Source: Rufibacter tibetensis (GTDB taxonomy: Bacteria > Bacteroidota > Bacteroidia > Cytophagales > Hymenobacteraceae). From it: a stretch of 64,000 nucleotides of DNA. Shown here piece after piece: positions 23,314-38,563 of the stretch. The position numbers and the translations under genes are program-made. The DNA lies in the NCBI RefSeq assembly GCF_001310085.1, contig NZ_CP012643.1, forward strand, positions 62,001-126,000, written 5' to 3'. The notes under the pieces were generated by a model. The model was not told the origin of the DNA. It saw only the letters and a program-made list of their open reading frames with translations, and ran no database searches. The first letter of the stretch is position 1; each line of letters begins with the position of its first letter.

Positions 23314-24696
23314 TCAGGAAACACCAAACACATACTTCTCCATAAACTCATTCCGGAACTTCCCTTCCAGGTCATGATGAAGAAGCAATTGCCTGAAATC
23401 CTCCATTCTCTCATACTGCGCCTGCAACACCTTGGGCTCCATGGTAAACAGTTTTCCCCAGTGCGGCCGCGCATTGAAAGGAGCTAGCTTCTCCTCAATG
23501 AGAGGCAGCAGTTGCATCACCACTTCCTCATCCTGTTTCCAAGTAAAGTGAAAGGCCACAGTAGTTTGCTTGTATTGTGGACTTAGCCACAACTCATCTG
23601 CCTTAATGGTTCTGATTTCTGACACAAAGAGATGCGGTGAGATCTTCTCGTGCAGTGATTCAATTGCCATAATGGCTTCATAAGCATGCTCAATGGCCAC
23701 AAAATATTCACTCTGCAACTCTGCCCCTGCACTCGGTTTGAACCCCATTTTAAAGTGCGGCAAACGCTCGTACCACTCACCAACTTCTCCCAATTGCTCA
23801 GTCGTATTCTCCGCAGATTCACTCTCAATAGGGTGCAACTTTTGAGTAGCCAGTTTTGCTCCAAACACCTCAGGTTCAATAATGGCCGGCACATCCTCCT
23901 CTACTTTACTCTTTACCCAAACCTGGTTAATGTTTTGGTTTTCCCAATGGGTAAACAGGCTCACGCTATACCCTTTAGACATGATTTCTACAAAATGATC
24001 TTGCAATGCGCGCATGGGTAGATTGCGGTACACCACTTGCGTCATTTTGAAGGAGGGCACCAGATCAAGGGTAATCTTAGTTACTACTCCCAAGCCTCCA
24101 AGCGCTACTACTGCTCCGTTGAACAATTCTCCATCCTTCTGCCGGGACATAGTTACCTGTTCACCCGCAGCATTTACAAATTCAATCGCAGAGACAGAAG
24201 TAGCAAGATTGCCGTTTTGTATTCCAGAGCCGTGGGTGGCTGTGGAACAGGCTCCAACTACTGTAATGTGCGGTAAGGAAGCCATGTTAGGAACTGCATA
24301 GCCATGTTGCTGCAGAACTTCGGCTAATTCTCCATACCGCATCCCTGCTTCTACGGTGATTTTAAAGGCTTCTTTGTCCAGTGAAACAATTTCGTTCAAA
24401 CTCTGAAGCGAAATAAGAGTGTCCCTACTGTCAGCGATTGTGTTGAAGGAATGCCTAGATCCTAAGGCTCGTTGGTTTCCGCCATTATTTACCAAGATTT
24501 GTATCTTACCGGTAGATTTAGGGAAATGCACCTTCTCGGCACTGTAAGTAAGATTACCAGCCCAATTAGTAAAACTCTTCGGCTGAGAGAAGGAAACTTT
24601 CCCCTTTTTCCAGTGAGCTGAGAAAAACCTTGACAAGAATACACCACCTGCAACAGCGAGAGAGAATGAAATTAATGCTCTTTTAACCATGGACAA
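23314..24696 (-). CDS. FAD-linked alditol/sugar-lactone oxidase-like protein
   Basis: This 460-residue flavoprotein of the VAO family has an N-terminal FAD-binding domain and a C-terminal ALO-type (D-arabinono-1,4-lactone oxidase) domain. RALGSRHSFNTIAD near residue 75-88 is the alditol-oxidase motif whose His is the covalent FAD attachment site in Streptomyces AldO. HITVVGACSTATHGSG (about 143-158) is the FAD-pyrophosphate region, and ARPHWGKLF near the end is typical of the ALO domain. A hydrophobic segment near the N-terminus (ALISFSLAVAGGVFLSRFF) suggests membrane anchoring or export. The likely reaction is oxidation of a sugar alcohol such as xylitol with release of H2O2; the substrate is inferred from motif similarity only. 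Confidence 0.82.
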   Translation of the reverse strand: MSMVKRALISFSLAVAGGVFLSRFFSAHWKKGKVSFSQPKSFTNWAGNLTYSAEKVHFPKSTGKIQILVNNGGNQRALGSRHSFNTIADSRDTLISLQSLNEIVSLDKEAFKITVEAGMRYGELAEVLQQHGYAVPNMASLPHITVVGACSTATHGSGIQNGNLATSVSAIEFVNAAGEQVTMSRQKDGELFNGAVVALGGLGVVTKITLDLVPSFKMTQVVYRNLPMRALQDHFVEIMSKGYSVSLFTHWENQNINQVWVKSKVEEDVPAIIEPEVFGAKLATQKLHPIESESAENTTEQLGEVGEWYERLPHFKMGFKPSAGAELQSEYFVAIEHAYEAIMAIESLHEKISPHLFVSEIRTIKADELWLSPQYKQTTVAFHFTWKQDEEVVMQLLPLIEEKLAPFNARPHWGKLFTMEPKVLQAQYERMEDFRQLLLHHDLEGKFRNEFMEKYVFGVS

Positions 24697-25032
24697 CTTA
24701 TTGATAAGTCAATATAGACAAAGAGCTGTATCATTCCTAAACATCGTACCCATTCGTAAGGGAACTTGAGGATAAGGAGTAATTTGGATGGATGGTTCTA
24801 CCCAAATCTTAAGAATTCAAGAGGTAGTAAATAAATTACATTAGCAAGTAGCTATCTAAGAAAGTGAACCCATATAAGGTGGTGGCGATTGGTACCGTTA
24901 TTTAGGATGGTGTACCTACTAGTGAGGTAAATTAAGTTCTGAAGATAGACTGAAAAGATTTTTACATAGCAGATGCTTATTGAGAACTTTATTAGAACCA
25001 ACAAGCAAAAATCAAATTGGTAAACTAACATT
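24697..25032. other. Gene-free stretch at the left edge of the AT-rich block
   Basis: No reading frame, RNA or repeat is recognised. Composition shifts here to the AT-rich style seen up to about 37.9 kb. I found no direct repeat shared with the right edge and no integrase gene. Confidence 0.45.
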
Positions 25033-25782
25033 TTACATAAAGCTTAAAAAACGCAAAATTCTTTGCTTTAAAATGAAATATGTTCTAAAAGGAAGGCTAT
25101 TTAACGATGAACCAAAAAATAAAAAAACAACCCCAAGGTAAGAACCAATTGTAACGCCTAATTGATTACCTAATATAAACAAGCAAATGGCACCTAATAA
25201 GCTTATATAGAATGGTACTAACCCATTGCGCTTTTTCGCACCCACAAAAAGAGCGTAGAGATTAACTCCCGTTATTATACCAAATATGGGTAGTAGCCAT
25301 GGGCTGTAAGGAATGGATTTAAGACTCGCAATTCCAAACACACTTAGGTAAGCCGCCCAACAAGCAGGACATTTTGGAAAGAAGGCAATAACAATGGGCG
25401 GAACAACATTAATTACATTCTTAGAAACTTTAATGGTAATGGCAGGTAAATTTATATTTACATTAGACTTTTTTAGCAGTTCTTTAACAGCTTTTATGAC
25501 TTCCGCTTCATTCCACTGTAAGTGAGTAAAACACTGGGCTATTTTGCCTTCTTTATTTAATAAGAATAGCTCTATTCTGTGGTTATTCACAATAGAACCG
25601 GCATAATTTACTCCAAGGTTGAAATACTGCTGAAGTCTTTCGTTTATTTTTCCCTCTGCCCTAAAAAAACGATTTTGATCGTCTATTTTGAAGCCCCTTA
25701 TTTCTGCATACGCATTTAATCTTAAGGGCAAGTCATAAGCTGGATCGTAAGTAATGGCAACCATTTGCAGACTTGCACCCAA
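25033..25782 (-). CDS. C-terminal fragment: end of SCO domain plus MerC-like membrane domain
   Basis: This is the downstream half of the interrupted gene, readable from a TTG at 25782 but more likely untranslated. Residues 1-90 complete the SCO domain. From about residue 115 there are four membrane helices with CPACW at the start of the first, similar to the metal-site Cys pair of MerC/MerT-type transporters. Confidence 0.45.
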   Translation of the reverse strand: MGASLQMVAITYDPAYDLPLRLNAYAEIRGFKIDDQNRFFRAEGKINERLQQYFNLGVNYAGSIVNNHRIELFLLNKEGKIAQCFTHLQWNEAEVIKAVKELLKKSNVNINLPAITIKVSKNVINVVPPIVIAFFPKCPACWAAYLSVFGIASLKSIPYSPWLLPIFGIITGVNLYALFVGAKKRNGLVPFYISLLGAICLFILGNQLGVTIGSYLGVVFLFFGSSLNSLPFRTYFILKQRILRFLSFM

Positions 25783-25788
25783 GTCCTC

Positions 25789-26640
25789 TTATGCTAAAGC
25801 TTCCTGAAGTTGCACTAGTCTAGTAATTGTTAAAGAACATTTATTTGGGTTATCGCACCGGGTGTAAAAGAAGGCTACAATTGTTGGGGCTCTATGAAAG
25901 AATTTGTTAAAGGCAAGTTTCTGCCCATTTTGATCCTCTAAAGTTAATTCTGAAACATCTATTTCGCTTGTATGGGTATTCAAACAATTGGTAGAATTAC
26001 TTAAAAAGCTATAATCACAACAGCTATCCATTACATTTCGATTATCCTCCTTAATGCAATAAATAGCTTTTTCGAGTTGTAGTTTTATGTCTGAATTAAT
26101 ATGATTTAATTTACCATCCCTTAACTGCTCAAGTTGTGCAATAGCAACTTTGGCGTAGGCCCCAAGCCATTGAAATGTAGTAAATATTTCATTTAAGGCT
26201 GTGGTATAATCTTTTAAAGCTCCCTTTGGTTTATATGATGCAAAAGAAATCCCATCATCCATGCCCCAAATATTTCGGATAGCCTTCAAAAGAAAAGGCA
26301 CTACTTGTATACTTGGGTTCTCCATACCCCTTAGGGCTTTAGCTGCGGCGGCAACACTATAGGCTTTACGGCTACTTTCCAACTCCTGTAATACATAAAC
26401 TAAGGCATCCTTAGGTAGGCCAACCTGTTCAAAAGCGGCCAGAATATATCCTCTCATTCGGATAACTTGGTTTGTGCCCCGGTTTTTATATAAGGGGTGT
26501 TGTTCCGGCAATAATCTTACAAGTAAATCTCTTTTTTCCGGAACAAGCAGTATCCTGTCAACAAAGGCCGCAAACTCTTCTTCTGGAGTTTCGCTGTTGT
26601 AGCTTTTGATAGCTGAGGCCAAATCTTTAAAAACCGGCAT
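25789..26640 (-). CDS. N-terminal fragment: HEAT-like repeats plus start of SCO domain
   Basis: The 283 residues run from an ATG two bases after the HEAT-repeat gene's stop to the in-frame TAA. The first 170 residues are helical repeats (for example SVAAAAKALRGMENPSIQVVPFLLKAI), followed by the first half of the SCO domain including both Cys. Without the second half the SCO fold would be incomplete, so the fragment alone is unlikely to bind copper normally. Confidence 0.6.
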   Translation of the reverse strand: MPVFKDLASAIKSYNSETPEEEFAAFVDRILLVPEKRDLLVRLLPEQHPLYKNRGTNQVIRMRGYILAAFEQVGLPKDALVYVLQELESSRKAYSVAAAAKALRGMENPSIQVVPFLLKAIRNIWGMDDGISFASYKPKGALKDYTTALNEIFTTFQWLGAYAKVAIAQLEQLRDGKLNHINSDIKLQLEKAIYCIKEDNRNVMDSCCDYSFLSNSTNCLNTHTSEIDVSELTLEDQNGQKLAFNKFFHRAPTIVAFFYTRCDNPNKCSLTITRLVQLQEALA

Positions 26641-26642
26641 TA

Positions 26643-27629
26643 CTACTTATTTTTCTTGATTTGTTCAGCAGCCGATTTGTACTGAGAATAAACAGCTTTA
26701 AAATTTGGGGATGCTATTTGCTGTTTGGCGTTCTCGAGCTTATGTTTAAATTCGGAATCATTCAGCGCATTTGTTTCAACAGAATAAGTTAGGGTATTCA
26801 ACATAGCCGTTTTCAATTCCTCATCCTCGTTCTCATCCAAAATAATTGCTTTGGCATAAGGCTGCGCATCGCCAGGCAAAACTGTTTCCAGGGCTACTGC
26901 ACAAACATGCCGTGTTTCGGGGTCTACTGTAGGGTCCTGTAGGTTCTGCAATAATAAATCTCTTGAATCCGGATCAGCAGCCAGATTGCGTAGTGCTTCT
27001 TTTTTACTGCGGACATTAGGAGGATTTTCAGCAATTTCACGGAGAATAGGAAAGTGCTCCGCATGCAAATCATAAGATAAAAGTTGTATAGCTACCTCGG
27101 GCGGAGTAATTTCCTTATCCGGTTCTTTTAAACCCTCTACCAGGCGCGACTGTATATAGGAGTCATTGTTCATTGCCAAATGCTCCATCGCCGATTGCTT
27201 TAGTATTGGATCAGCTGAATCTATTAAATCCCGTAAAGCGTTAAGATAAGCTGGTCTTTTAACCGGGAAAATGGAAGAACTAAAGCTACTGGCCTGTAAA
27301 ACAGTTAATGCCGCTCTTCTTAATTTTACCGGTGCCGATGCATCCCTTAAAATAACAATAACCTCATCCATTAATTTTTCATTACGGCTTACTTCATTAA
27401 TCAACCCCTCCAATATCGCCGCCCTAAGGTCTTCCGGTTGTGTATCATCATGTAAAATTTCCATACCTTTTCGGATGTGCTCTTCTTCATTAAAAGTTCC
27501 GAAGTTTTTAAAGGCCTCTAGCCTGTCCTGAAGAGATTTGGAGGCATCAAAAAAAACCTCAGTTGATCCGGCCATTCTAGCTTGAGCATCTTCTAATTGT
27601 TTCCGATATGCACTTTTATAATCAGTCAT
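26643..27629 (-). CDS. HEAT-repeat protein
   Basis: The 328-residue soluble protein is made of repeated helix pairs with the HEAT pattern: LRAAILEGLINEV, VKLRRAALTVLQAS, PILKQSAMEHLAMN, VRSKKEALRNLAAD and PETRHVCAVALETVL recur every 35-45 residues. Such solenoids bind partner proteins. It has no signal peptide and no enzyme motif. It lies 19 bases after the tyrosinase stop and 2 bases before the HEAT-SCO gene, so all are probably one transcript. A scaffold role in assembling or loading copper into the tyrosinase is inferred from this context. Confidence 0.78.
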   Translation of the reverse strand: MTDYKSAYRKQLEDAQARMAGSTEVFFDASKSLQDRLEAFKNFGTFNEEEHIRKGMEILHDDTQPEDLRAAILEGLINEVSRNEKLMDEVIVILRDASAPVKLRRAALTVLQASSFSSSIFPVKRPAYLNALRDLIDSADPILKQSAMEHLAMNNDSYIQSRLVEGLKEPDKEITPPEVAIQLLSYDLHAEHFPILREIAENPPNVRSKKEALRNLAADPDSRDLLLQNLQDPTVDPETRHVCAVALETVLPGDAQPYAKAIILDENEDEELKTAMLNTLTYSVETNALNDSEFKHKLENAKQQIASPNFKAVYSQYKSAAEQIKKNK

Positions 27630-27648
27630 AATAATTTTCGTTTAGAAC

Positions 27649-28941
27649 CTAAGCAACCTGGCCTGGGTGGTCAAATGGTACATCATCGTAAGCAAAACAT
27701 AAGTTCGAAGCAAGGTTGTGTTGCCCCTGATAATCAATCATACTTTTTAAGTCCGGATTTAGACCAGGTACTTGCACAATTGGTGAATCAGGAAATGTTC
27801 CTCTGGGTCCGGTAGTGGGCCTTGGTGCAATAAAATCTCCATTCCAGGGCCACATGGTATCATCTGTAAAATTTCCAATGCCAAATTCCCCGGCAGTTCC
27901 GGTGTTCCCATTTCCTTGGTGCGGATAAGCATCCTGACTAGAAAAATCAAATCGTTGTCCATCCATCACCCATTGCCACTTTGCCCATAACCGGTCTACA
28001 TTAGCATGTAGCATAAAAAATAGTGGATCCGCTGGCGCCCTGTCAATTTCAGAAACAGGACCATCAAAGCTCAGGTGGGCTCCGCCATGGGGATCCCCCT
28101 CCATTCTTCTAAATATTCTAAATTGACTTCCAAGGCTAATAGTTTCCATTTCATCATTTTGAACCATTGCTGCCTTTTCATTGCGTGTATCAAAAAAAGG
28201 CACTCTTCTTATTCTGCCGGTTCCTTGTCCGAAAATTGTTGGCCGCCAATTTATTAAGGGATTGGTATTACTAAATTCTATCAATCCTGTACGATCAGGT
28301 ACTCCTACAAAATCTCCAGAAAACACATTTGGTGCAGGTTTATCAAAGCGCCAGTAAGGTAGTGTAACGCTAGGGTCTATTTCCTGCAGTTTACGCTCAA
28401 AATCTAGTAAATATGCCCGATGCCAAACCAGGAACGAACTTCGTCTATGAATTTCCGGATCAGCCTGAGCAGTATGCATGTTTTGAAAATCAACATATCT
28501 GCCAAGTTGGGTCAACCGGACAATGGCCGCAAGATACCGGTCTCTTTCAGATGGGGTAAGGGTATTTGCATCTTTTCTGACCCGCACCATTAAAGCTTTG
28601 CTGCCAATTTGCGCGGACGAGCTCCTATCAATTACCGCAATAATACAGTCCTTATCTCTGATGCTTGCGTGGCCTATTCCGGTATTCCGGTCAAACTTTC
28701 CGGCTATATAAAAACTTACCGGATCTCCGCTACCGCCAGTTTCCAATTCAATTGAATTGGAAACTGGGTCAGTTAAATGTTGTTTAAAAACAACCTGACC
28801 ACCCGTAGCAGCATTAACATTTTGGAGAACCACGCGTTTATTAAGTCCATCGGTAGATGAAATGGTGCATCTGGATGGAGTCCAGGTTATGTAATCCGCA
28901 TCTGGATTTACAGAATTGCCTATCAGTATTTGAACGCTCAT
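27649..28941 (-). CDS. Tyrosinase-family type 3 copper protein
   Basis: The 430-residue protein has the paired copper sites of tyrosinases and related oxidases. For CuA these are His156, His165 and His174 (MHTAQ, then EIHRRSSFLVWHRAYLLDFER with the typical H-x8-H spacing). For CuB they are His285, His289 and His312 (DPHGGAHLSF, then DPLFFMLHANVDRLWAKWQ). All six expected ligands are present. Such enzymes hydroxylate phenols and oxidise catechols to quinones, giving melanin-like products. The first 120 residues form an extra beta-rich domain of unknown role. No signal peptide is seen, so cytoplasmic folding and later release or retention are both possible. It leads an operon with HEAT and SCO/MerC-like genes that look like maturation factors. 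Confidence 0.88.
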   Translation of the reverse strand: MSVQILIGNSVNPDADYITWTPSRCTISSTDGLNKRVVLQNVNAATGGQVVFKQHLTDPVSNSIELETGGSGDPVSFYIAGKFDRNTGIGHASIRDKDCIIAVIDRSSSAQIGSKALMVRVRKDANTLTPSERDRYLAAIVRLTQLGRYVDFQNMHTAQADPEIHRRSSFLVWHRAYLLDFERKLQEIDPSVTLPYWRFDKPAPNVFSGDFVGVPDRTGLIEFSNTNPLINWRPTIFGQGTGRIRRVPFFDTRNEKAAMVQNDEMETISLGSQFRIFRRMEGDPHGGAHLSFDGPVSEIDRAPADPLFFMLHANVDRLWAKWQWVMDGQRFDFSSQDAYPHQGNGNTGTAGEFGIGNFTDDTMWPWNGDFIAPRPTTGPRGTFPDSPIVQVPGLNPDLKSMIDYQGQHNLASNLCFAYDDVPFDHPGQVA

Positions 28942-28980
28942 CTGGATAAATTTTAATATTACATAACAATAAAGGTTTAC

Positions 28981-29295
28981 CTATTTGATGATTATTTGGA
29001 CCACCTCCACAGTGGGCAAACCATCTATACTTTGAATACTACAAAAAGGGTAATAAACATAGTTACCTGAAGAAAGCTTTACCGTAACATAATCATTTCC
29101 AACTTTAAAAATCTTACATTTCGTTAAAGATTTATTATTCACGATAACGATAATATTACTTTTCAAATAAAGATTAAGCACTTCTTTAAAAGAAGTGGGT
29201 GTTTGCTGTATTATCAATTTTAGAGAAGACCCAAAATCAAATAAGTTTAAATTAAACAGTGAAATTAATCCTGAAATCAAAAAACAATTTAACAT
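28981..29295 (-). CDS. Small protein with Sm-like/DUF2642-like segment
   Basis: The 104-residue protein has a hydrophobic N-terminus and a C-terminal segment (about residues 47-100; NIIVIVNNKSL, KIFKVGNDYVTVKLSSGNYVYYPFCSIQSI). That segment resembles the small beta-barrel DUF2642 proteins described from Firmicutes (strand, glycine turn, VGxDYVxL, YIPFxxIxSI). The match is by eye and moderate. The start at 29295 is preceded by a GAGGGTGG ribosome-binding-like stretch. It ends 39 bases before the tyrosinase start on the same strand and is probably co-transcribed. A regulatory or RNA-related function would be speculation. Confidence 0.6.
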   Translation of the reverse strand: MLNCFLISGLISLFNLNLFDFGSSLKLIIQQTPTSFKEVLNLYLKSNIIVIVNNKSLTKCKIFKVGNDYVTVKLSSGNYVYYPFCSIQSIDGLPTVEVVQIIIK

Positions 29296-29689
29296 AGGTT
29301 TCCACCCTCATAAATTTATAATTAATACACTTTGTGTCTTTACAACTAATTATCTGTAACATAATCCATGTAAACTTCAAACTTAGTTAGAAATACTAAT
29401 TATAATTAATTTATTAAGTATCGAAACAACTTACATAAACCTGAGTAAAACATGTTACAAATTTTACCAAATTTAACTACTTATTCAGGGATTTTCTTTT
29501 TTACTTCATAATATACTCAAAGTATAAATCTTTGGTTTTAAAGTAATTAATATCAAACAAAAATAATTGGCGACTTACATAACAAAGGAATTTATAAGAA
29601 CAAATTCCAACTATTACTTTCAACTTACTGATCTAGATTTATATTTTCAAGAATTAGCAACTAACTTTACTATTTATTAATCAAAAAAA
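29296..29689. other. AT-rich intergenic region
   Basis: It is extremely AT-rich. It contains a candidate TAAGTTTG promoter element for the tyrosinase transcript and the downstream end of the lipoprotein gene set. No coding potential is seen. Confidence 0.45.
29378..29385 (-). promoter_or_regulatory. Candidate -7 element (TAAGTTTG) of the tyrosinase operon
   Basis: This TAnnTTTG match on the minus strand lies 83 bases before the ATG of the 104-residue gene. No -33 TTG is clear. The region is so AT-rich that chance is a real possibility. Confidence 0.3.
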
Positions 29690-30244
29690 CTATAAAGGCT
29701 CAACAAACCCCTTTTTAGCGTAAACTGCCAACATTTTCCCTTCGAGCTTCCTAGAAGAACGCCTTCCAGGTTTCAATGTTGCTTGTAAATTAACAGTAAT
29801 ATATGTATCGAAAGCGGTTTTTGAACCCATATTAATTTGATCAGAAATGCTCGCTGTTAGATTATAACTTTTATCCCGTTCAAATGCATTAACAGTTGCA
29901 CTTTTCATAATAAAATTTGACGCATCTTTACTTAGAACAGTAAAATTTATTATTACAGCTGCCCTTACATTATCAAAACGGATAGTATCAGAATATGAAA
30001 TTTCATTGGCTTGCTTCCATTCACCTTGTAAATCAGTGGGCAAATCCCATTCCCTTGTAGCTAAGATATTTGCAGAATCATCAATATTATCCCTTATTTC
30101 AGATGCCTGGTTTCCATCAATGGCATGGATCTCTGAAGTTGACTTTGTCTCTTCTGACTGGACAGATGATTTATTACAACTTAAAAGCATTACAAATAAT
30201 AAAAAAGATAAGCGAGATTTATTTTCTGGTTTCATAAAGATCAT
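29690..30244 (-). CDS. Putative lipoprotein, 184 residues
   Basis: The N-terminus (SRLSFLLFVMLLSCNKSS) is a lipoprotein signal with the Cys at about residue 23, so the mature protein is probably lipid-anchored in the periplasm or at the outer membrane. The rest begins with a Ser/Glu-rich linker and ends in a beta-rich domain (IINFTVLSKDASNFIMKSATVNAF, YITVNLQATLKPG). I do not recognise the family. It is the last of a minus-strand series that starts with the two-component system near 37.5 kb. Confidence 0.7.
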   Translation of the reverse strand: MIFMKPENKSRLSFLLFVMLLSCNKSSVQSEETKSTSEIHAIDGNQASEIRDNIDDSANILATREWDLPTDLQGEWKQANEISYSDTIRFDNVRAAVIINFTVLSKDASNFIMKSATVNAFERDKSYNLTASISDQINMGSKTAFDTYITVNLQATLKPGRRSSRKLEGKMLAVYAKKGFVEPL

Positions 30245-30366
30245 TTATAACTTAACTACATTGATGAACAGCATTTGAATAAAAAAGAAAAATCATTATA
30301 ATTTATAAGCCTAGGATTCCTTTAATTACTAGATGGCTAAGAATAAATTTTTTTGAAAATTACCTA

Positions 30367-30693
30367 CTATTTGATGAATATTTTAAACCTTGCTTCAATT
30401 TCATTTGCCTTTAAGCCTTTAATGACATAGTTCTTCTTACCAACTATCTTTTTACAGTTAATAACTACTTTGCCACCTTCTTTTCCTGAACTTTCAAAGT
30501 CAAATACTGTCTTATCCCCAAACTCAATAGCATTAGCATATATTATCAAATCATTAGCCCCGATTTTAAAGGTCCCTTTTAACTTTCCATTGTTAACTGC
30601 ATAATATTGATCTTTATCAGTTCCAGTTATCTCTCTAGGTACACAAGCTGTAAACAAACTGATTAAGGCTATAAAAACAATATTTACTTTCAT
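30367..30693 (-). CDS. Small putative lipoprotein, 108 residues
   Basis: The signal MKVNIVFIALISLFTACVPRE has a lipobox ending in Cys17. The mature part is about 90 residues, mainly beta (KLKGTFKIGANDLIIYANAIEFG, GGKVVINCKKIVG), and carries a second Cys. The family is unknown. Its start lies six bases after the stop of the 554-residue secreted protein, so the two are surely co-transcribed and may act at the same membrane. Confidence 0.72.
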   Translation of the reverse strand: MKVNIVFIALISLFTACVPREITGTDKDQYYAVNNGKLKGTFKIGANDLIIYANAIEFGDKTVFDFESSGKEGGKVVINCKKIVGKKNYVIKGLKANEIEARFKIFIK

Positions 30694-30699
30694 TAAGCT

Positions 30700-32364
30700 T
30701 TACTTTTTGGTGTTAATATTAAAGTTTAAGCCCAGGTATAACTTAGGAGTTGAATCGAATTTCCACCTAATTAGGTTTTGCAATTCAGCATCCCCACCAG
30801 TAATAATATCTCCTTCTTTCTTTTCTGATAATTGCCTATTCCAAGTAAGCAGTCCTCCAATTGAAAAAGTAATATTATAATCAGGAAGGTTAAAGCATAA
30901 ACCCGAAAGGAACATTGGATAATTTTGGCCTGCTGCAACGCCAAACTGAAGACCAGGCAAAAAATGGCTATTCCTTATATTTGGAAAAAGATTTAAACCA
31001 GCTCCAAAATTAAAATAGTCCTTTTCTTCTTTGGTTTTAACAATTGTAGCATTTCCACTAGCATCATTAGCTGTACTAAATTGATTATAATTCACATCAG
31101 TATAAAACCCACCTGTAGATGCTACCAAAATTACATTGCGTATTCGTTTAACTGAAAAATTTCTATTTATAACAGATTTTTCTTCTACTGTAACTAAACT
31201 TGGATTATTTTTATTAAAGGTTAAATGATTTATTTTTAGGCTTATAGTCTGAAAATTTTTTCTATCGATAGGAAGGCTTTTTATAAGCTGATAGTATTCA
31301 CCTTCCCAGTCGTTCGAATTTTGATAGGCCTCTAGTTTTTTATAACAGTTCAGCAATTCTTCCTGCTGCTTTTTTCTTTTGGCAAGAATGTCTTGATATT
31401 TTTTGAGAAGACCCCGCAAATGGACAACAACTAGATTTCTTGCAAAATCATGTTTATTTTTATCAAAGCTCCTTTGGTTATTTGGATCCGAAAAGCTGAT
31501 ACTATCAACATTAATAATTTCTTCAGGATGATCAATCTTGTCGGTTACATCGATAATTGATGTCTCCATTGATGATATTAAATATGCTAATGATGTAGTT
31601 ACCTCTTTTTCAACTATTCTTCCATTTATATCCTTTAAATTATCCTTTAATGAAGCTATAGTTTTTAATCCTTTCATTTCTTCAAAAACTTCTAAGCTTG
31701 TCGTTTCAAATGAATTTTGCATAAAAGCCTCTTCCGCACTAATCAGAATATTTAACAATTCCTTTTTAGTTTCAGGTTTTGAATACAAGCTTAACTCATC
31801 CGAATTCAACCAAAGATACAATTCTATTGTCTCCAAATTTTGAAGGGATTTGAAATCCTTTATTTCTGTTGCTGTCTGCCCTAATTGTGTAGGGGAATGA
31901 ACAAACACCATCTGATTTCCCCCTTTTAATATGTCACCAAATGCTGTATTGATATTAGTACCTGAAGCAGATGGCAATCCAGCTAATAATGCGCCGGTAG
32001 CATTCAAAGCAGTAATAAAATTAGAAGTAGCATTATTTAAATCCTCATCTACTTCTTCTTTAGTTTCTACATTTACCTTATATACTAAAGGATTTAAAAA
32101 TTGTAACCAAATATTCACATAGGAAGATTTAGCGGAGAGATTAGAATTATTTCGTAATACTTGTTTTTTTAAACGATTATCTTTATAAGATAAATCTTTA
32201 AAAAACACTATATTAGTATCACCGCTAATGGATAATTCAAGTGCCAAAATATCATCAATCCTTTCTGATTCTACATTCTTAATGATATAGTCTTGAGCAT
32301 TTGCTTTATTTATAAATAAACAAAAGCAGAAAATTAAACAAGTCGATTTATAGAGATTTATCAT
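30700..32364 (-). CDS. Secreted/outer-membrane protein of unknown function, 554 residues
   Basis: A signal peptide (STCLIFCFCLFINKANAQ) precedes a long helical region (about 60-370) with coiled-coil character (KYQDILAKRKKQQEELLNCYKKLEAY). The C-terminal 180 residues alternate hydrophobic and polar residues and end in a beta-barrel-like pattern (YLGLNFNINTKK; PGLQFGVAAGQNYPMFLSGLCFNL). It may be an outer-membrane protein with a periplasmic helical domain. No known family is recognised. It has the same strand and AT-rich base composition as its neighbours. Confidence 0.7.
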   Translation of the reverse strand: MINLYKSTCLIFCFCLFINKANAQDYIIKNVESERIDDILALELSISGDTNIVFFKDLSYKDNRLKKQVLRNNSNLSAKSSYVNIWLQFLNPLVYKVNVETKEEVDEDLNNATSNFITALNATGALLAGLPSASGTNINTAFGDILKGGNQMVFVHSPTQLGQTATEIKDFKSLQNLETIELYLWLNSDELSLYSKPETKKELLNILISAEEAFMQNSFETTSLEVFEEMKGLKTIASLKDNLKDINGRIVEKEVTTSLAYLISSMETSIIDVTDKIDHPEEIINVDSISFSDPNNQRSFDKNKHDFARNLVVVHLRGLLKKYQDILAKRKKQQEELLNCYKKLEAYQNSNDWEGEYYQLIKSLPIDRKNFQTISLKINHLTFNKNNPSLVTVEEKSVINRNFSVKRIRNVILVASTGGFYTDVNYNQFSTANDASGNATIVKTKEEKDYFNFGAGLNLFPNIRNSHFLPGLQFGVAAGQNYPMFLSGLCFNLPDYNITFSIGGLLTWNRQLSEKKEGDIITGGDAELQNLIRWKFDSTPKLYLGLNFNINTKK

Positions 32365-32490
32365 ATTAAAAATTGGTTACAACAATACATTCTTAGTTTA
32401 AATAATAATTTTATGTTTATAAAATAATTCATAAACTTCCTTTGTATAATAAAAAACAGGAAAGTTTAGATAAAGAATAAATTCAGTAGC

Positions 32491-35400
32491 CTATGGAGGC
32501 ATTGGCCCTCGGTAGGTAGTATCACGAACTTCTTGACTCCATAGTTCTTTAGAAGTTTTAAGGTCTAATGCACGAACTTTTAATGGTTCTTTTTTTAAAC
32601 CCTCCTTAGTTCTTATAGTATAAGGCTGGGTTTGATAAATTACAATGTTATCCTTTACAATAAAGTTTACAAATGGAAAAGGGCTTTTAAATTCTCCTAA
32701 CTGCTTTTTACTATCGCGCTCGTAAATTCTCAAAGTGTATCTTCCTGATACCGCATTGTTATTTGTGGGTTGACTTACTAATATATGCAGGCCATCTGCT
32801 GATATAAATTGGGGACTTGAGCTTCCTGAAATAAGCTTTGAAGAAAAAGAAGCTTTATTCTTTAGGCTATTTAAATTATTTAATTCAGCAGGTTGATCTA
32901 TAGGAGTTGTTTCACCATTTGAAAGCTTTAACCGAAAAGCACCACTTTTAATATTTGTTAATGAAGTATCGCCTTTAGGTAAAGTAAAATTTATTTCCTC
33001 TTGGGCAGGCATTTTACCTCTCGTACGTTCCAGCACGCCTCTTTTAATATTTCTGCTTTTGTCAGGTTCGACAAACTGCCAGGCCACTATTAAATCATTG
33101 TTAACCAGATACGAATTAGCAACAAACTCACCTTTTGATGACTTTATAACAGAGGCGTTTACATCAGAAGGCAGTTCCTCTTGAGCGGAAACTATTGTAT
33201 GGCCATTTGCAGGGTTTAGTGCAACTATTTTTAGGTTGTTGTCTGGTTTCAAATTTTCAACTTGGCTTATTAAACGTTTTTTTACAACTCCTAAAGGCTT
33301 TGTTGCTGCTGCTGTATACCACATCTTTTCACCAGTTGAAAGTTTTACTGCTTCAATACCCCCATTTGGGCTCATAATAAAAGCACGACTTTTATTCGGT
33401 TCTATAATTACACCAGGAAAAAGTTCAAATGAATTTTGTTTACTTGACTTCTGAATATTGACATCTTCCACTATCAAGGGCTTATTAGTTTGATAATTGG
33501 TTCTGTTTACCAGATTACCATGCACCAGTAAAGGTTCCGGGAATTTTAACGTGAATGCACCTCTACCTAACGTTCCAGCCAGCAAAATTCTATCAACAGC
33601 ATCATACTCTAAGCTCATTACTGGCACCTTAGGAAGCTTTGCACCCAGTGAAGTCCAATCCGTGTAGTTTGAACCAGAAGCCATGTAAACTCCATTCTCG
33701 GTTCCAATTATAATTGCTCCTTCAGGAGTATGATTGCTATAGGTAATGGAAAAAAGTTCTCCAGGAGAAAATTTGGGTAAGTTGCCGGTGATTTCCGTCC
33801 ATGAAGTATCGCCGTTTGCAGTGTGGTAAACTCGGGTAAAATCAACTACAAAAGCAGAATTGGGATTATTTGGGTCAATTGCGATACCAGCTACCCAACC
33901 ACCGTTATAAGAAGTTGATCTTCTTAATGGCTCTGGGGAAGCAGATTTCCTTATATACAATGAGTTTCCTGACCCAACATATAGTACCTCTGGATTTCCA
34001 ACTGCACCATAAGCAATAGAGCTAGTGTAAGTTGCGTTTACTACAAGCCTTTGGCCATGTTCATCAAAAATCTCTTCAGCAAAAGCTCCTTCGTTAAACG
34101 ACTCATAAACAGAATGTTCACCACCAATAATCATGCGGTAAGGCTCAACATTGTTTAGCTTTATAGGAGTATATAATCTCCCAATAATTGAGTCACCGCT
34201 TGTTGAAGTTGGAAAAATTGTATATGAAAGCTGCAAATTATTTTTAGCATCAAAAATATCGCGTACTAAAAAAAACTTATTATTTTGCTCCAATTGACTT
34301 GAGAAACGTGTAGAGGTATCCGGCACACTAAAATCATTAATCGCTACTACCCCACCGTCGCCCAATAAAACACTGTTCCACTTTACATTATTAGGTTGTT
34401 CCTGTTCTGAAGAACCTGTATCTTGCGCTCCACCAATGATAGTATTTGTATTTGCATCCCAGGCAATGGAATGGAACTCCGTTGTTTGAATATTACCGTT
34501 CATGGAAAACCAGTCGCCTTGGTTAGTTTGTGGGCTCGTCCTACGGTAAATTCCCCCATCATTAACCTCAATAAGTACACCATTGGCTGCTATAGCCATA
34601 TCTCTTGAGTCTGCATGAGGCGCACTGTTATTTCTAGTTCCACCTCCAGAAGCTCCTAATAGGTTCGAATGGGTAAGATGTACCCATTGTTTGTCCAAAG
34701 GCTTAGATACATCTCCTCTAAATAAAAGTCCAGTATATTCCTTTGCACCTATGGAATTCCCATTTGTGAAACCTTGTGGTCCAGGTTCTTGCCTATCACC
34801 TCCTAAATATACAATATCAGGACTTTTAGGATCTGCTATAAGTGAGAAATGTATATTCCCCTGTCCTCCTGGATGTAAACCTCCTTCAGCCGTTTTAGGT
34901 AATGACACAGTCTTCCATTGAAAATAATTTTTATCAGAATAAAAGAAGCCTACCAAAGCATAGGGTGGTCCTTTTTCGAGGGATGGTGTTACAACTGCTA
35001 CAAAGATATTCTTACTGCCCCCCACTGAAATTTTGATATTTGCAGCATCGGCTATCATATTATCCATGGCAACATTGCTTATTTTGCTCCAGGTTGTTCC
35101 AAAGTTCAAACTCTGGTAAATACCTGCTTTTCCTGCATTGGTAAATAAGCGCTTCGGATTGGTGGGATCTGAAGTAAGGCCAAAAGATGCACCAGAAGGA
35201 AGGCCAGTTTCTTTTAATCGGCCAGATACTTTCCTCCATGATTTACCAGTATTGGTACTCCGCCAAATGCCTACAAAGGCTGTGTCTAGATAATTAGCTG
35301 ATTTATATGATTTATTTACAGAAATAAGAATTGTATCTCCACGAGAGGCGACACCTGATATATTTAGATTATTCAGAGTATCCTTACCATTTATAGCAAT

Positions 35401-35865
35401 CCAGCTTTTGCCATTGTTTGTGGTGCGCAGCAAACCTGAGAGAGCGCCACCTATATTCTCAAAACTACTGAAACGACCAATACCAGCTATAAGAGTTCGA
35501 TGTGTTGGATCCTTGGTATCATATTCCAAAGCACCTATCGATAAGGAACTTTGATTATCAGTATTAGTTTCCCAAGTAGGTTTTGCTGCCATTGCGTTGC
35601 TTGTTTTCCATATTCCACCGTTAACGGTTCCCACAAAAACAACATTGGAGTCGGTAGGATGTACTGCAACGGCATTAATGGCACCAGATACCTCTCCATC
35701 TTTAATGTTTTCTACTTGACCATTAATAGTAGGACCTGGGGCATGAGGCATCCAAACCATCTGTTGCGCTTTGACCCTACCATTAAATAAAAGTAACAAA
35801 ATAAATAGAGCTCTTAATATTCTCCATCTATAACCTTTTAGCTTTATTTCTACTCTAGTCATCAA
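32491..35865 (-). CDS. Secreted beta-propeller (BNR/sortilin-like plus PQQ-like) protein
   Basis: The 1124-residue protein starts with a signal peptide (ILRALFILLLLFNGRVKAQ). The first 760 residues carry repeated BNR/Asp-box-like elements (GGIWKTSNAM, GLLRTTNNGKSWIAI, GIWRSTNTGKSWRKVS, GIYQSLNFGTTWSKIS), the pattern of sortilin/Vps10-type or exo-sialidase-like propellers. The last 300 residues resemble PQQ-type propeller blades (GIEAVKLSTGEKMWYTAA, KVRALDLKTSKELWSQEV). No T9SS sorting tail is seen. Such double-propeller proteins in Bacteroidota are often annotated as glycosyl hydrolases, but I see no catalytic motif to support an enzyme. It may bind polysaccharide or protein at the surface, or be controlled by the upstream two-component system. 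Confidence 0.78.
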   Translation of the reverse strand: MMTRVEIKLKGYRWRILRALFILLLLFNGRVKAQQMVWMPHAPGPTINGQVENIKDGEVSGAINAVAVHPTDSNVVFVGTVNGGIWKTSNAMAAKPTWETNTDNQSSLSIGALEYDTKDPTHRTLIAGIGRFSSFENIGGALSGLLRTTNNGKSWIAINGKDTLNNLNISGVASRGDTILISVNKSYKSANYLDTAFVGIWRSTNTGKSWRKVSGRLKETGLPSGASFGLTSDPTNPKRLFTNAGKAGIYQSLNFGTTWSKISNVAMDNMIADAANIKISVGGSKNIFVAVVTPSLEKGPPYALVGFFYSDKNYFQWKTVSLPKTAEGGLHPGGQGNIHFSLIADPKSPDIVYLGGDRQEPGPQGFTNGNSIGAKEYTGLLFRGDVSKPLDKQWVHLTHSNLLGASGGGTRNNSAPHADSRDMAIAANGVLIEVNDGGIYRRTSPQTNQGDWFSMNGNIQTTEFHSIAWDANTNTIIGGAQDTGSSEQEQPNNVKWNSVLLGDGGVVAINDFSVPDTSTRFSSQLEQNNKFFLVRDIFDAKNNLQLSYTIFPTSTSGDSIIGRLYTPIKLNNVEPYRMIIGGEHSVYESFNEGAFAEEIFDEHGQRLVVNATYTSSIAYGAVGNPEVLYVGSGNSLYIRKSASPEPLRRSTSYNGGWVAGIAIDPNNPNSAFVVDFTRVYHTANGDTSWTEITGNLPKFSPGELFSITYSNHTPEGAIIIGTENGVYMASGSNYTDWTSLGAKLPKVPVMSLEYDAVDRILLAGTLGRGAFTLKFPEPLLVHGNLVNRTNYQTNKPLIVEDVNIQKSSKQNSFELFPGVIIEPNKSRAFIMSPNGGIEAVKLSTGEKMWYTAAATKPLGVVKKRLISQVENLKPDNNLKIVALNPANGHTIVSAQEELPSDVNASVIKSSKGEFVANSYLVNNDLIVAWQFVEPDKSRNIKRGVLERTRGKMPAQEEINFTLPKGDTSLTNIKSGAFRLKLSNGETTPIDQPAELNNLNSLKNKASFSSKLISGSSSPQFISADGLHILVSQPTNNNAVSGRYTLRIYERDSKKQLGEFKSPFPFVNFIVKDNIVIYQTQPYTIRTKEGLKKEPLKVRALDLKTSKELWSQEVRDTTYRGPMPP

Positions 35866-35979
35866 TTAAAATCACTTATTATTTTGCGATTTTATTCTTC
35901 AACCTCATTCCTCAGCTTCAACGTAGTTTCAATGTATTATTATAGATTTGAGGCCCATTGGCTAAATGTTCTGGAAATC

Positions 35980-36624
35980 TTACTCTCCCAATCTTTTTAA
36001 AATTGCTCCTTTAGCAGAATGCACATGCAACTTCTCATAAATATGTTCCAAGTGTTTCCGAACTGTTTTGCTCGCAATAAATAATTCTTCTGAAATTTGT
36101 TTTACTGCCAATCCACGCTTCAAACACTCTAATACTTCTTTTTCCCGCTTACTAAGGACATCCAAAGCCGCTATTGTTGGTTTAGGCATTACTTTTTCCC
36201 CCTTCAAATAACTTAGTACCATACCAGCTAAGCTTGGTGAAAGTGGCAACCCCCCGTCCAACACATCATAGATAGCATTAAGCAACTGGTAGGGCTTAGC
36301 ATCTTTTAACAGGTACCCTGAAGCACCTGCCTCCATAGCATTAAAAAGTTTTTGCTCGTCGTCCATCACTGTCAGCATTACAATCTTCAAATCCGTACAT
36401 TTTTGCTTAGCTAATCTGGTGGCTTCAATACCATCCATATCTGGCATTTGTATGTCCATGAATATTACTTCCGGTATAATACCTTTTGCTAATGTTTGTA
36501 ACAGTGTCAGCCCATTTGGTACTTCAAATAGCACTTCTACATCTTCGCTTAACGCGAGCTTATCTCGAATATCTTGCCCCAATTGGACATTGTCTTCCAC
36601 TATCCCGACGGTAACTTTTTGCAT
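35980..36624 (-). CDS. NarL/FixJ-type response regulator
   Basis: Residues 1-120 are a receiver domain with acidic pocket ED (10-11), phospho-acceptor Asp57 (VIFMDIQMPDMDG) and Lys in YLLKDA. Residues 150-214 are a LuxR-type helix-turn-helix (LSKREKEVLECLKRGLAVKQISEELFIASKTVRKHLEHIY). It is of standard length (214). It follows the HisKA_3-type kinase gene with an 80-base gap and the same direction, so the pair is almost certainly cognate. The target genes are probably the downstream secreted proteins, but no operator could be picked out. Confidence 0.92.
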   Translation of the reverse strand: MQKVTVGIVEDNVQLGQDIRDKLALSEDVEVLFEVPNGLTLLQTLAKGIIPEVIFMDIQMPDMDGIEATRLAKQKCTDLKIVMLTVMDDEQKLFNAMEAGASGYLLKDAKPYQLLNAIYDVLDGGLPLSPSLAGMVLSYLKGEKVMPKPTIAALDVLSKREKEVLECLKRGLAVKQISEELFIASKTVRKHLEHIYEKLHVHSAKGAILKRLGE

Positions 36625-36704
36625 CCAAATTAGATATAGAATTTGCTCTATAATTGAAAGGTACAGTGTAAAATTCAGCTTGTAAATACGTCAAATGACG
36701 TATT

Positions 36705-37478
36705 TTAAGCACTTAAAGGGAGTATAACCTTGATGCAGGTACCTGAAGCAGTAGAATTTATAAGGAAAGTGCCTTTTACTTCCTCCGCACGTTTGCGCAA
36801 GTTAGTAAGTCCAAAACCGTTTGTTGAAGAAGAAGCATGCAAGCCTCGTCCATTATCTTCAATGGTAAGAGATGCATTTGCTTTTGATATTTGCAACGTC
36901 ACACATACCTGCGATGCTAATGCATATTTTAGCGCATTGTTAGTACCTTCTTGAGCAATGCGTAATAAGTGCATTGCAACTAAAGGCTCCACCACTGATT
37001 TATCCTTATTATGATACAAATTCCAATTGAGGTTTGGCACCTCACGGTCTTCCCAAATCTTTAGCAACAATCCATGCATTCGCCCCCCTAATGCTTCGCC
37101 TGTGACCTGTTCCTGATCAAGTAGCCAGATTGTTTCTCTGAGAGTATGATTCATCTCCCGGGTGAACTCACTTAGGCGGAGAAGTTGCCTAGAATCTGGT
37201 ATTTTATGGTAAGCAAGTAATTCTAGACGTGAGATAAGGTGAGTGAGTTGAGAACCAAATCCATCATGTAAGTCACGCCCCAACTTTTCACGCTGGACCT
37301 GCAACTCTTTTTCCAAATGGACTGCTTTCAGTTCTGCGTCACGCTGTTTTTGTTCGGCTTCTACTAAGGATTGTAGCAATACATTATAAGAACTAAGTAT
37401 TTCTACCTTTCTAGTTAAGTATTGGATATGATAATTGGTCCAACTGAGAATATTGCTCAGCATGTTAGCTACAATCAT
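36705..37478 (-). CDS. NarL-system sensor histidine kinase (HisKA_3 type), short
   Basis: The 257-residue kinase has a short N-terminal helical segment, a dimerisation/phospho-acceptor domain with His71 in GRDLHDGFGSQLTHLISRLELL, and a HATPase_c domain (EGTNNALKYA, DNGRGL, GFGLTNLRKRAEEV). It has no periplasmic sensor domain and no clear membrane helix beyond a weakly hydrophobic N-terminus, so it probably senses a cytoplasmic signal or relies on a partner. The short form may be an N-terminally reduced version of the usual TPR- or membrane-linked Bacteroidota kinases. Two in-frame ATGs (37478 and 15 bases further in) are possible starts. Confidence 0.88.
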   Translation of the reverse strand: MIVANMLSNILSWTNYHIQYLTRKVEILSSYNVLLQSLVEAEQKQRDAELKAVHLEKELQVQREKLGRDLHDGFGSQLTHLISRLELLAYHKIPDSRQLLRLSEFTREMNHTLRETIWLLDQEQVTGEALGGRMHGLLLKIWEDREVPNLNWNLYHNKDKSVVEPLVAMHLLRIAQEGTNNALKYALASQVCVTLQISKANASLTIEDNGRGLHASSSTNGFGLTNLRKRAEEVKGTFLINSTASGTCIKVILPLSA

Positions 37479-37795
37479 AATATATTAAATAAAATATTAT
37501 ATTGTTATTTCAAGTATATAAGCAAGGAGCATGCAGAGCTTCTTAGAAAAAGCTTCTGAAACGGGAAGAAGAAAAACTTAAGATAGGTAAATAGCCATTT
37601 ATGACTGTAAAATAGTCGGGCGTTTACCCTTGATGATTACTAAAGAGATACTATTTTATATCAAGTCTTAGTGTTTATACTAAATAGATTGGAATTACTT
37701 TTTTTATATTTTCTTTGTCACTAAACTAAAAGAACAATACTTCACCTTCAATACTTACTATTAAGTATTTATACAGAAGTGTAAGGTTAAAGCAA
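37479..37795. other. AT-rich gene-free stretch at right edge of accessory block
   Basis: This is upstream sequence of the two-component genes. No reading frame, RNA or boundary repeat is recognised. Confidence 0.45.
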
Positions 37796-37830
37796 AAAAG
37801 GCCTTCGTAGAAGTACTACGAAGGCCTTTT
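37796..37830 (-). terminator. Intrinsic terminator after sigma/anti-sigma operon
   Basis: A perfect 15-bp stem (37796-37810 with 37816-37830) has a 5-base loop and is followed by T's on the minus strand. It lies 120 bases past the anti-sigma stop and insulates the AT-rich block from it. Confidence 0.8.
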
Positions 37831-37951
37831 ATAAGAAGAAATAAAAAGTAAGTAATTGTGAGTTTAGAAGCTTACTATCAAATCCTATAATAAAAGAATC
37901 ACAATCTTTTTGACTACAAACTTCTTGTTAATCAAAGACTATTATCAAGCA

Positions 37952-38563
37952 CTACGCCGCCAACCGTTGCAAAATCACTTTACAAGGCTCTTTTGAAGTC
38001 ACCTTCACCATATGGTTCTTATGCAACGGAATGGCAAAGAAATCTCCTGGCTTCAACGAATTCACCTCCCCATCAACGGTTATGTCACAGCTGCCTTCCA
38101 AAATCAGGAAGCGCTCGTGTTCATCATGGTGAATTTCCTCCTCGGCTATGCCTTTGAGCCAGACAATGGCGGTGGTTACACTGGGGGTGTAGCCAATAAT
38201 CTTCACGTAAATATCCTCGGCATCAGGAGCTAATTGCATATCATCCCGGGTATACCAGGTGGCGTAATCCTCTACTTTAGACGTAGGGGTAAGTTCTGGA
38301 GGGGAAGAAACGGGCTCTCCATTTTTCATCCGCTCCATGTAATCTATGGTTGCCAGTACAAGTGGTTTAAGTGTGCTGGGCGGTTCTACAGCATGAGCCA
38401 AGGCATACGCTTCTATGCTTTGACGAATGGCGTCGATCTCTTTGCGGATCTCAGGGTGAGCGGAAGCCATTTGCTCTACCTCCTGCGTTTCTTCTGGCGT
38501 AGTGGCGTCCATGACGTACAGCTCTAAAATCCCGGATTCTATGTAGTCTGTAATGGGGTTCAT
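37952..38563 (-). CDS. Cupin-domain anti-sigma factor (ChrR-like arrangement)
   Basis: The N-terminal 80 residues look like an RskA-type anti-sigma domain (IESGILELYVMDATTPEETQEVEQMASAHPEIRKEIDAI). The C-terminal half is a single cupin barrel with metal-ligand pattern HHDEHERFLILEG and PGDFFAIPLHKNHMV (about residues 140-190). No membrane helix is present, so it is a soluble anti-sigma factor whose cupin could sense a metal or oxidant, as in the ChrR/SigE pair of Rhodobacter. Unlike ChrR it lacks the N-terminal HxxxCxxC zinc motif. Its ATG overlaps the sigma factor stop by four bases (ATGA), which indicates translational coupling and a direct partnership. Confidence 0.82.
   Translation of the reverse strand: MNPITDYIESGILELYVMDATTPEETQEVEQMASAHPEIRKEIDAIRQSIEAYALAHAVEPPSTLKPLVLATIDYMERMKNGEPVSSPPELTPTSKVEDYATWYTRDDMQLAPDAEDIYVKIIGYTPSVTTAIVWLKGIAEEEIHHDEHERFLILEGSCDITVDGEVNSLKPGDFFAIPLHKNHMVKVTSKEPCKVILQRLAA

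Follow-up and report, generated by a model that had tools for sequence, protein, structure and literature searches.

A tyrosinase gene set with HEAT-repeat and SCO-domain partners recurs across bacterial phyla as a probable copper-loading cassette

A 64,000-nucleotide stretch of Rufibacter tibetensis (contig NZ_CP012643.1, positions 62,001 to 126,000; hereafter the window, in which all coordinates are given unless a locus is named) carries on its minus strand a set of three genes encoding, in this order, a tyrosinase (27649-28941, 430 amino acids), a HEAT-repeat protein (26643-27629, 328 amino acids), and a protein composed of a helical domain, an SCO domain, and a MerC-like membrane tail (25033-26640). 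We conclude that the set is probably a mobile three-gene maturation cassette dedicated to copper loading of this class of tyrosinase. Direct support was obtained for joint inheritance of the genes, their order, fusion of tyrosinase and HEAT protein, matching export signals, ligand-type residues, and the SCO fold. An initial annotation of this DNA had described an enzyme accompanied by its own metallation machinery with almost no spacing between genes; the gaps measure 19 and 2 bp, and recurrent linkage together with the SCO features makes metallation the best reading, although copper loading itself is inferred, the membrane tail is optional, and the SCO gene of the window is interrupted.

Absence of recurrent linkage in other genomes had been set beforehand as a result that would refute this idea, and it was not what the searches showed. 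One genome per species was searched, along with plasmids, using the tyrosinase alone as the seed, so that partner genes beside the matches constitute independent evidence; strict pattern scans were applied, and the number of cassettes is therefore a lower bound. Thirteen further tyrosinases of the same class were recovered, and HEAT and helical-SCO genes follow in the same order at 12 of these loci (incompletely at one, where the contig ends). The genome search contributed nine loci, with partners downstream in the same order at eight: Arcticibacter, Olivibacter, Hyunsoonleella, and metagenome-assembled genomes (MAGs) of Nocardiopsis, Chloroflexi, Alphaproteobacteria, Saprospiraceae, and Neomegalonema. 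In the Alphaproteobacteria MAG, the contig runs out before reaching the SCO cysteines. Among plasmids, 82 records contained a tyrosinase match, which covered ≥80% of the length in six; the SCO partner was found in exactly those six and in none of the other 76. The six records represent four non-redundant cassettes, from Paraburkholderia caribensis, Rhizobium gallicum, Rhizobium sp. CIAT894, and Bradyrhizobium barranii. Cassette hosts belong to Bacteroidota, Actinomycetota, Chloroflexota, and Alpha- and Betaproteobacteria, where the phylum assignments of MAGs carry a risk of mis-binning and isolate and plasmid records alone account for Bacteroidota and Alpha- and Betaproteobacteria.

Among the tyrosinases examined, the linkage is specific to one class. 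In a class sample of 395 genomes, other tyrosinases did not exceed 107 bits against the cassette profile, compared with 608 for that of the window, and no partners were present within the flanks of about 1.5 kb examined beside them. Within a phylum sample of 395 genomes, a cassette-type SCO protein was found in the window's genome only (549 bits; next match, 75), and none of the other 394 contained the DNA-encoded signature FFYTRCxNxxKC. When the rhizobial and Nocardiopsis versions served as queries, no further cassette came up, the latter adding only weak SCO matches from Sinorhizobium. This rare and scattered distribution fits horizontal spread.

The first gene of the set encodes a type 3 copper enzyme, as initially annotated. 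The protein matched PF00264 with an E value of 1.7e-33 (117.2 bits; cut-off, 22.6), and all six copper-ligand histidines (H156, H165, H174, H285, H289, and H312) are invariant across 12 homologues. The closest solved structures to its model are Streptomyces and Bacillus tyrosinases (Z 18.2 over about 230 residues, with about 30% identity), the model being poor beyond residue 338. Binding of two copper ions and oxidation of phenols are the activities predicted for the class. Residues 1 to 117 form a beta domain in the model, for which no family was found in Pfam or, by sequence, in the PDB. The residue directly after the first CuB histidine is glycine in 11 of the 12 tyrosinases and asparagine in locus L038; Bacillus megaterium tyrosinase also has asparagine here, and the glycine could reflect a shift in substrate. 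The L038 tyrosinase (569-2449 of that locus) starts like a lipoprotein and carries its N-terminal beta domain in duplicate.

The second gene was likewise correctly called as a HEAT protein: it scored 28.2 bits against PF13646, just above the cut-off of 27.7, and its best PDB matches are alphaRep/HEAT proteins. In Olivibacter (L034), tyrosinase and HEAT protein form a single open reading frame (ORF) of 750 amino acids, in which both PF00264 and PF13646 were matched, the HEAT portion with 41.8 bits.

The third protein, whose residue numbers refer to a read-through translation of the window gene, was aligned with 11 homologues. Residues invariant in the 12 sequences include C207-C208 in the linker before the SCO domain (26017-26022), F257-F258-Y259-T260, N264, K267, and E357, together with the cysteine motif C262-x5-C268 within FFYTRCDNPNKCS (25837-25857) and the distal histidine H354 (25579-25581). 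In SCO proteins, Cu(I) is ligated by two cysteines and a distal histidine (PMC7558416). Intact homologues scored 40 to 42 bits against PF02630 (cut-off, 22.8), while the two halves of the window gene scored 16.5 and 12.8 bits alone, below the cut-off. A model of the Arcticibacter protein, with a mean predicted local distance difference test (pLDDT) score of 77 and values mostly of about 75 to 92 in the SCO part, matched solved SCO proteins with Z scores of 18 to 20, among them 4hde (Z 19.7, root mean square deviation [rmsd] 2.5, 163 residues) and copper-bound Arabidopsis ScoI (Z 18.8, rmsd 2.3, 156 residues). In a sequence alignment to 4hde, H354 falls on the SCO distal histidine. Together, sequence, fold, the two cysteines, and the distal histidine support an SCO relationship, and by its sequence the domain is predicted to bind Cu(I).

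The cassette signature is FFYTRCxNPxKC. Its CX5C spacing, in place of CX3C, was considered as a hallmark of the cassette and rejected, because several ordinary Bacteroidota SCO proteins share it (CPxPDFC). The motif CxNPxKC also omits a proline after the second cysteine that is common in ordinary SCO proteins. We thus regard the third protein as an SCO-domain variant by sequence and fold, and not as a cytochrome-oxidase SCO protein in its usual place.

In the initial annotation, the third gene was a single fusion of HEAT, SCO, and MerC-like parts, a description of which the SCO part has held. The N-terminal part is all-helical in the Arcticibacter model, and no tool called it HEAT: it had no Pfam HEAT match and no similarity to the profile of the HEAT protein, on which ground the two were rejected as duplicates of each other. 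The tail (25036-25470) has about four membrane helices by hydropathy and matches MerC weakly. It is present in five cassettes (the window, L030 from Arcticibacter, L034, L035, and L039), all of which scored 16 to 20 bits against Pfam MerC, under the cut-off of 27.6 (window, 18.2). The sequence PKCPxC at the first tail helix is invariant in the five and reads PKCPAC in the window (C424 and C427, about 25360-25371). The tail is an accessory, because other cassettes do without it. If the N-terminal part is cytosolic, the topology predicted for the tail would keep the SCO domain on the cytosolic side of the membrane. The surroundings of the cassette showed no mercury genes.

The single open frame of the third gene did not hold either, as an in-frame TAA at 25789-25791 had been overlooked. 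This codon lies inside the SCO domain, between the cysteine motif and the distal histidine, and splits the gene into two ORFs of the same frame (25789-26640 and 25033-25782), whereas the Arcticibacter homologue is an uninterrupted ORF of 533 amino acids. Sequence beyond the stop shows no decay. Conservation between the window and Arcticibacter proteins amounts to 56% ahead of the stop, 52% in the remainder of the SCO domain, and 45% in the tail, versus 42%, 42%, and 32% in the same segments between L030 and L035, and codon-position composition is alike on both sides. A TTG lies two codons past the TAA. Because post-stop sequence is as conserved as expected, the TAA would be recent, an assembly error, or tolerated via read-through or re-initiation; reassignment of the codon is not suggested, because TAA also terminates other genes in the window. 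The R. tibetensis copy may thus have been broken recently, may contain a sequencing error, or may be produced as two fragments.

Irrespective of what the family does in other hosts, it is a serious possibility, if somewhat short of an even chance, that the cassette in R. tibetensis is a decaying pseudo-operon that lacks a working copper-loading set. The position of the TAA within the SCO domain speaks for decay, as do frame-broken tyrosinases in two rhizobial plasmid cassettes (L041, 6001-7237, and L042, 6001-7436), each split into two frames beside open HEAT and SCO genes. Against it stand the conservation past the stop, which equals that in intact homologues, the intact state of the other two window genes, and the innocent origins of the stop considered above.

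Export signals were judged by hydropathy and by reading of the sequences, and hydropathy bore out the absence of a signal peptide from the window tyrosinase. The initial annotation had left the location of the enzyme as an open question, which is answered in part by its partners: they match the export status of the tyrosinase in every complete cassette. In the Saprospiraceae locus (L036), each of the three proteins begins with an export signal, of lipoprotein type in two cases, whereas none of the three proteins carries an export signal in any other complete cassette. Of the SCO-type proteins, 11 of 12 have no N-terminal signal by hydropathy and only that of L036 looks exported. The set would therefore be cytosolic in most hosts and exported in one. 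Pairwise distances between the proteins are correlated (r of 0.77, 0.58, and 0.85; of 5000 permutations, 2, 28, and 2, respectively, gave values as high), and such covariation of sequences shows joint inheritance, not contact.

These features suggest how a dedicated copper-loading set might operate. The two cysteines and distal histidine of the SCO domain would bind Cu(I), which the domain would pass on to fill the vacant binuclear site of the tyrosinase. Apo-tyrosinase and donor would be kept together by a scaffold consisting of the HEAT protein and probably also the helical domain fused to SCO. Where present, the optional MerC-like tail would anchor the donor at the membrane and may draw copper there. 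All of this would take place at the location of the enzyme, in the cytosol of most hosts and outside it in the one Saprospiraceae version.

Several findings weigh against such a set. The same-class tyrosinase of the ninth genome locus, L038, shares its contig with neither a HEAT nor an SCO gene. Of the 12 aligned copies, 7 have no tail, and the tail is sub-threshold to Pfam MerC; the helical domain lacks a HEAT match; and a stop codon breaks the SCO gene of the window itself. The known SCO chaperones work in the periplasm, yet most cassette SCO proteins have no signals. Finally, SCO-like proteins can be thiol-disulfide oxidoreductases (PMC7558416).

This last point leads to an alternative in which the SCO-like protein deals with thiols and disulfides or with peroxide instead of donating copper, either protecting the enzyme or the cell from quinones and peroxide or carrying out a reduction that must precede the entry of copper by other means. 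The SCO domain shares the thioredoxin fold, and the Arcticibacter model also matched peroxiredoxins and ResA, less well than SCO structures (Z of about 13 to 15). For one Sco1, an oxidoreductase role has been proposed in place of Cu(I) donation (PMC7558416), and the missing proline after the second cysteine of CxNPxKC is a departure from ordinary SCO proteins in the same direction. We nevertheless consider this explanation unlikely, given that the distal histidine is invariant and SCO structures rank at the top, and that general protection needs neither strict linkage to one class of tyrosinase nor a HEAT scaffold or a tyrosinase-HEAT fusion.

Less probable still is the reading of the cassette as a small operon for biosynthesis or protein modification, with the HEAT and helical domains presenting a peptide or phenolic substrate to the tyrosinase and SCO in a secondary role. 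HEAT scaffolds often bind protein partners, and the glycine after the first CuB histidine in 11 of 12 tyrosinases may mean an unusual substrate. In the Nocardiopsis MAG, the genes after the cassette encode a protein that fits no known family and a ferritin-like protein of VioB type (L031, 11496-13787), hinting at a phenolic or indolic pathway there. However, no substrate gene or other enzyme is common to the flanks of the loci read, and the SCO domain with its ligand residues is the most conserved part of the third protein. As for chance adjacency of unrelated genes, only the rarity of the cassette (1 of 395 phylum genomes) speaks for it, and it is ruled out by recurrence of the same order at 12 further loci across phyla, together with the fusion and the matching export signals.

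The proposed copper-loading role has precedents among tyrosinases. In Streptomyces, MelC1 is a dedicated helper, encoded in the operon, that loads copper into the tyrosinase MelC2 (PMC9454253), and by analogy the cassette partners would play the same part. MelC1, however, is a small beta-rich protein with no sequence relation to the cassette, which instead encodes, downstream of the enzyme, an SCO domain on a helical scaffold and a HEAT protein; no MelC1-type family was found in Pfam scans of the window proteins (E up to 1) or in NCBIfam (E up to 0.1). In Marinomonas mediterranea, the second gene of the tyrosinase operon ppoB1/ppoB2 encodes a membrane protein for specific copper transfer (PMC2855505), a layout that appears to resemble the membrane-tailed versions of the cassette. 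PpoB2 belongs to COG5486, whereas the cassette proteins match SCO and, weakly, MerC; no COG5486-type family was among their Pfam matches, and membership as judged from those matches is not supported.

The SCO1/SenC/PrrC chaperones are periplasmic factors for cytochrome oxidase (PMC7558416). The third cassette protein is like them in its thioredoxin-like SCO fold, two cysteines and distal histidine, and match to PF02630, and differs in its fusion to a helical domain, mostly absent signal, CxNPxKC motif, and linkage to a tyrosinase. Likeness to the mercury transporter MerC is limited to the tail, with its roughly four membrane helices, CxxC at the first of them, and weak Pfam match; it differs in scoring below the cut-off and in being fused to SCO. 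Searches of openly accessible papers turned up none that couples a tyrosinase to an SCO or HEAT protein, and the novelty of the combination is accordingly provisional. We give about even odds to a broader proposition, that the cassette constitutes a third, independently evolved route of copper loading for tyrosinases, in which an SCO domain co-opted from cytochrome oxidase assembly works in the cytosol with a HEAT scaffold fusible to the enzyme and has spread between phyla as a unit.

Delivery of copper to type 3 copper enzymes is understood in few bacterial cases. If true, a cassette with an SCO-domain donor would give SCO chaperones a role outside cytochrome oxidase, point to a means of metallating a copper enzyme where the compartment is normally almost devoid of free copper, and provide helper genes for producing tyrosinases with a full copper complement. 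Both the exported version and the fusion of tyrosinase with HEAT protein open the copper-loading idea to direct testing.

The cassette is in a variable stretch of the chromosome (24697-37951), because the region is missing or replaced in genomes of the same genus. In two of these (G003 and G010), the gene for a flavin adenine dinucleotide (FAD) oxidase (23314-24696) adjoins a cupin gene (37952-38563) and the intervening 13 kb are missing; in two others (G002 and G004), the two-component genes (35980-37478) are present and the whole portion between them and the FAD oxidase gene (24697-35979) has given way to about 8 kb of unrelated content in the form of other genes. An ORF of 104 amino acids at 28981-29295, within the range initially annotated, had no Pfam match, and no counterpart was seen upstream of homologous cassettes when flanks were inspected by eye. 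Beside the cassette lies an AT-rich patch (29000-33000), with 27.5 to 31.7% G+C versus about 40 to 45% nearby, in which three proteins (29690, 30367, and 30700) had no Pfam family. An anti-phage role was considered and set aside, as PADLOC returned no convincing match and a single hit of 15 bits, to a methyltransferase tail. The region at 32491-35865 encodes a Sortilin-Vps10/BNR-type repeat protein of 1124 amino acids, which had no close homologue in 14 relatives and has several weak paralogues in the genome.

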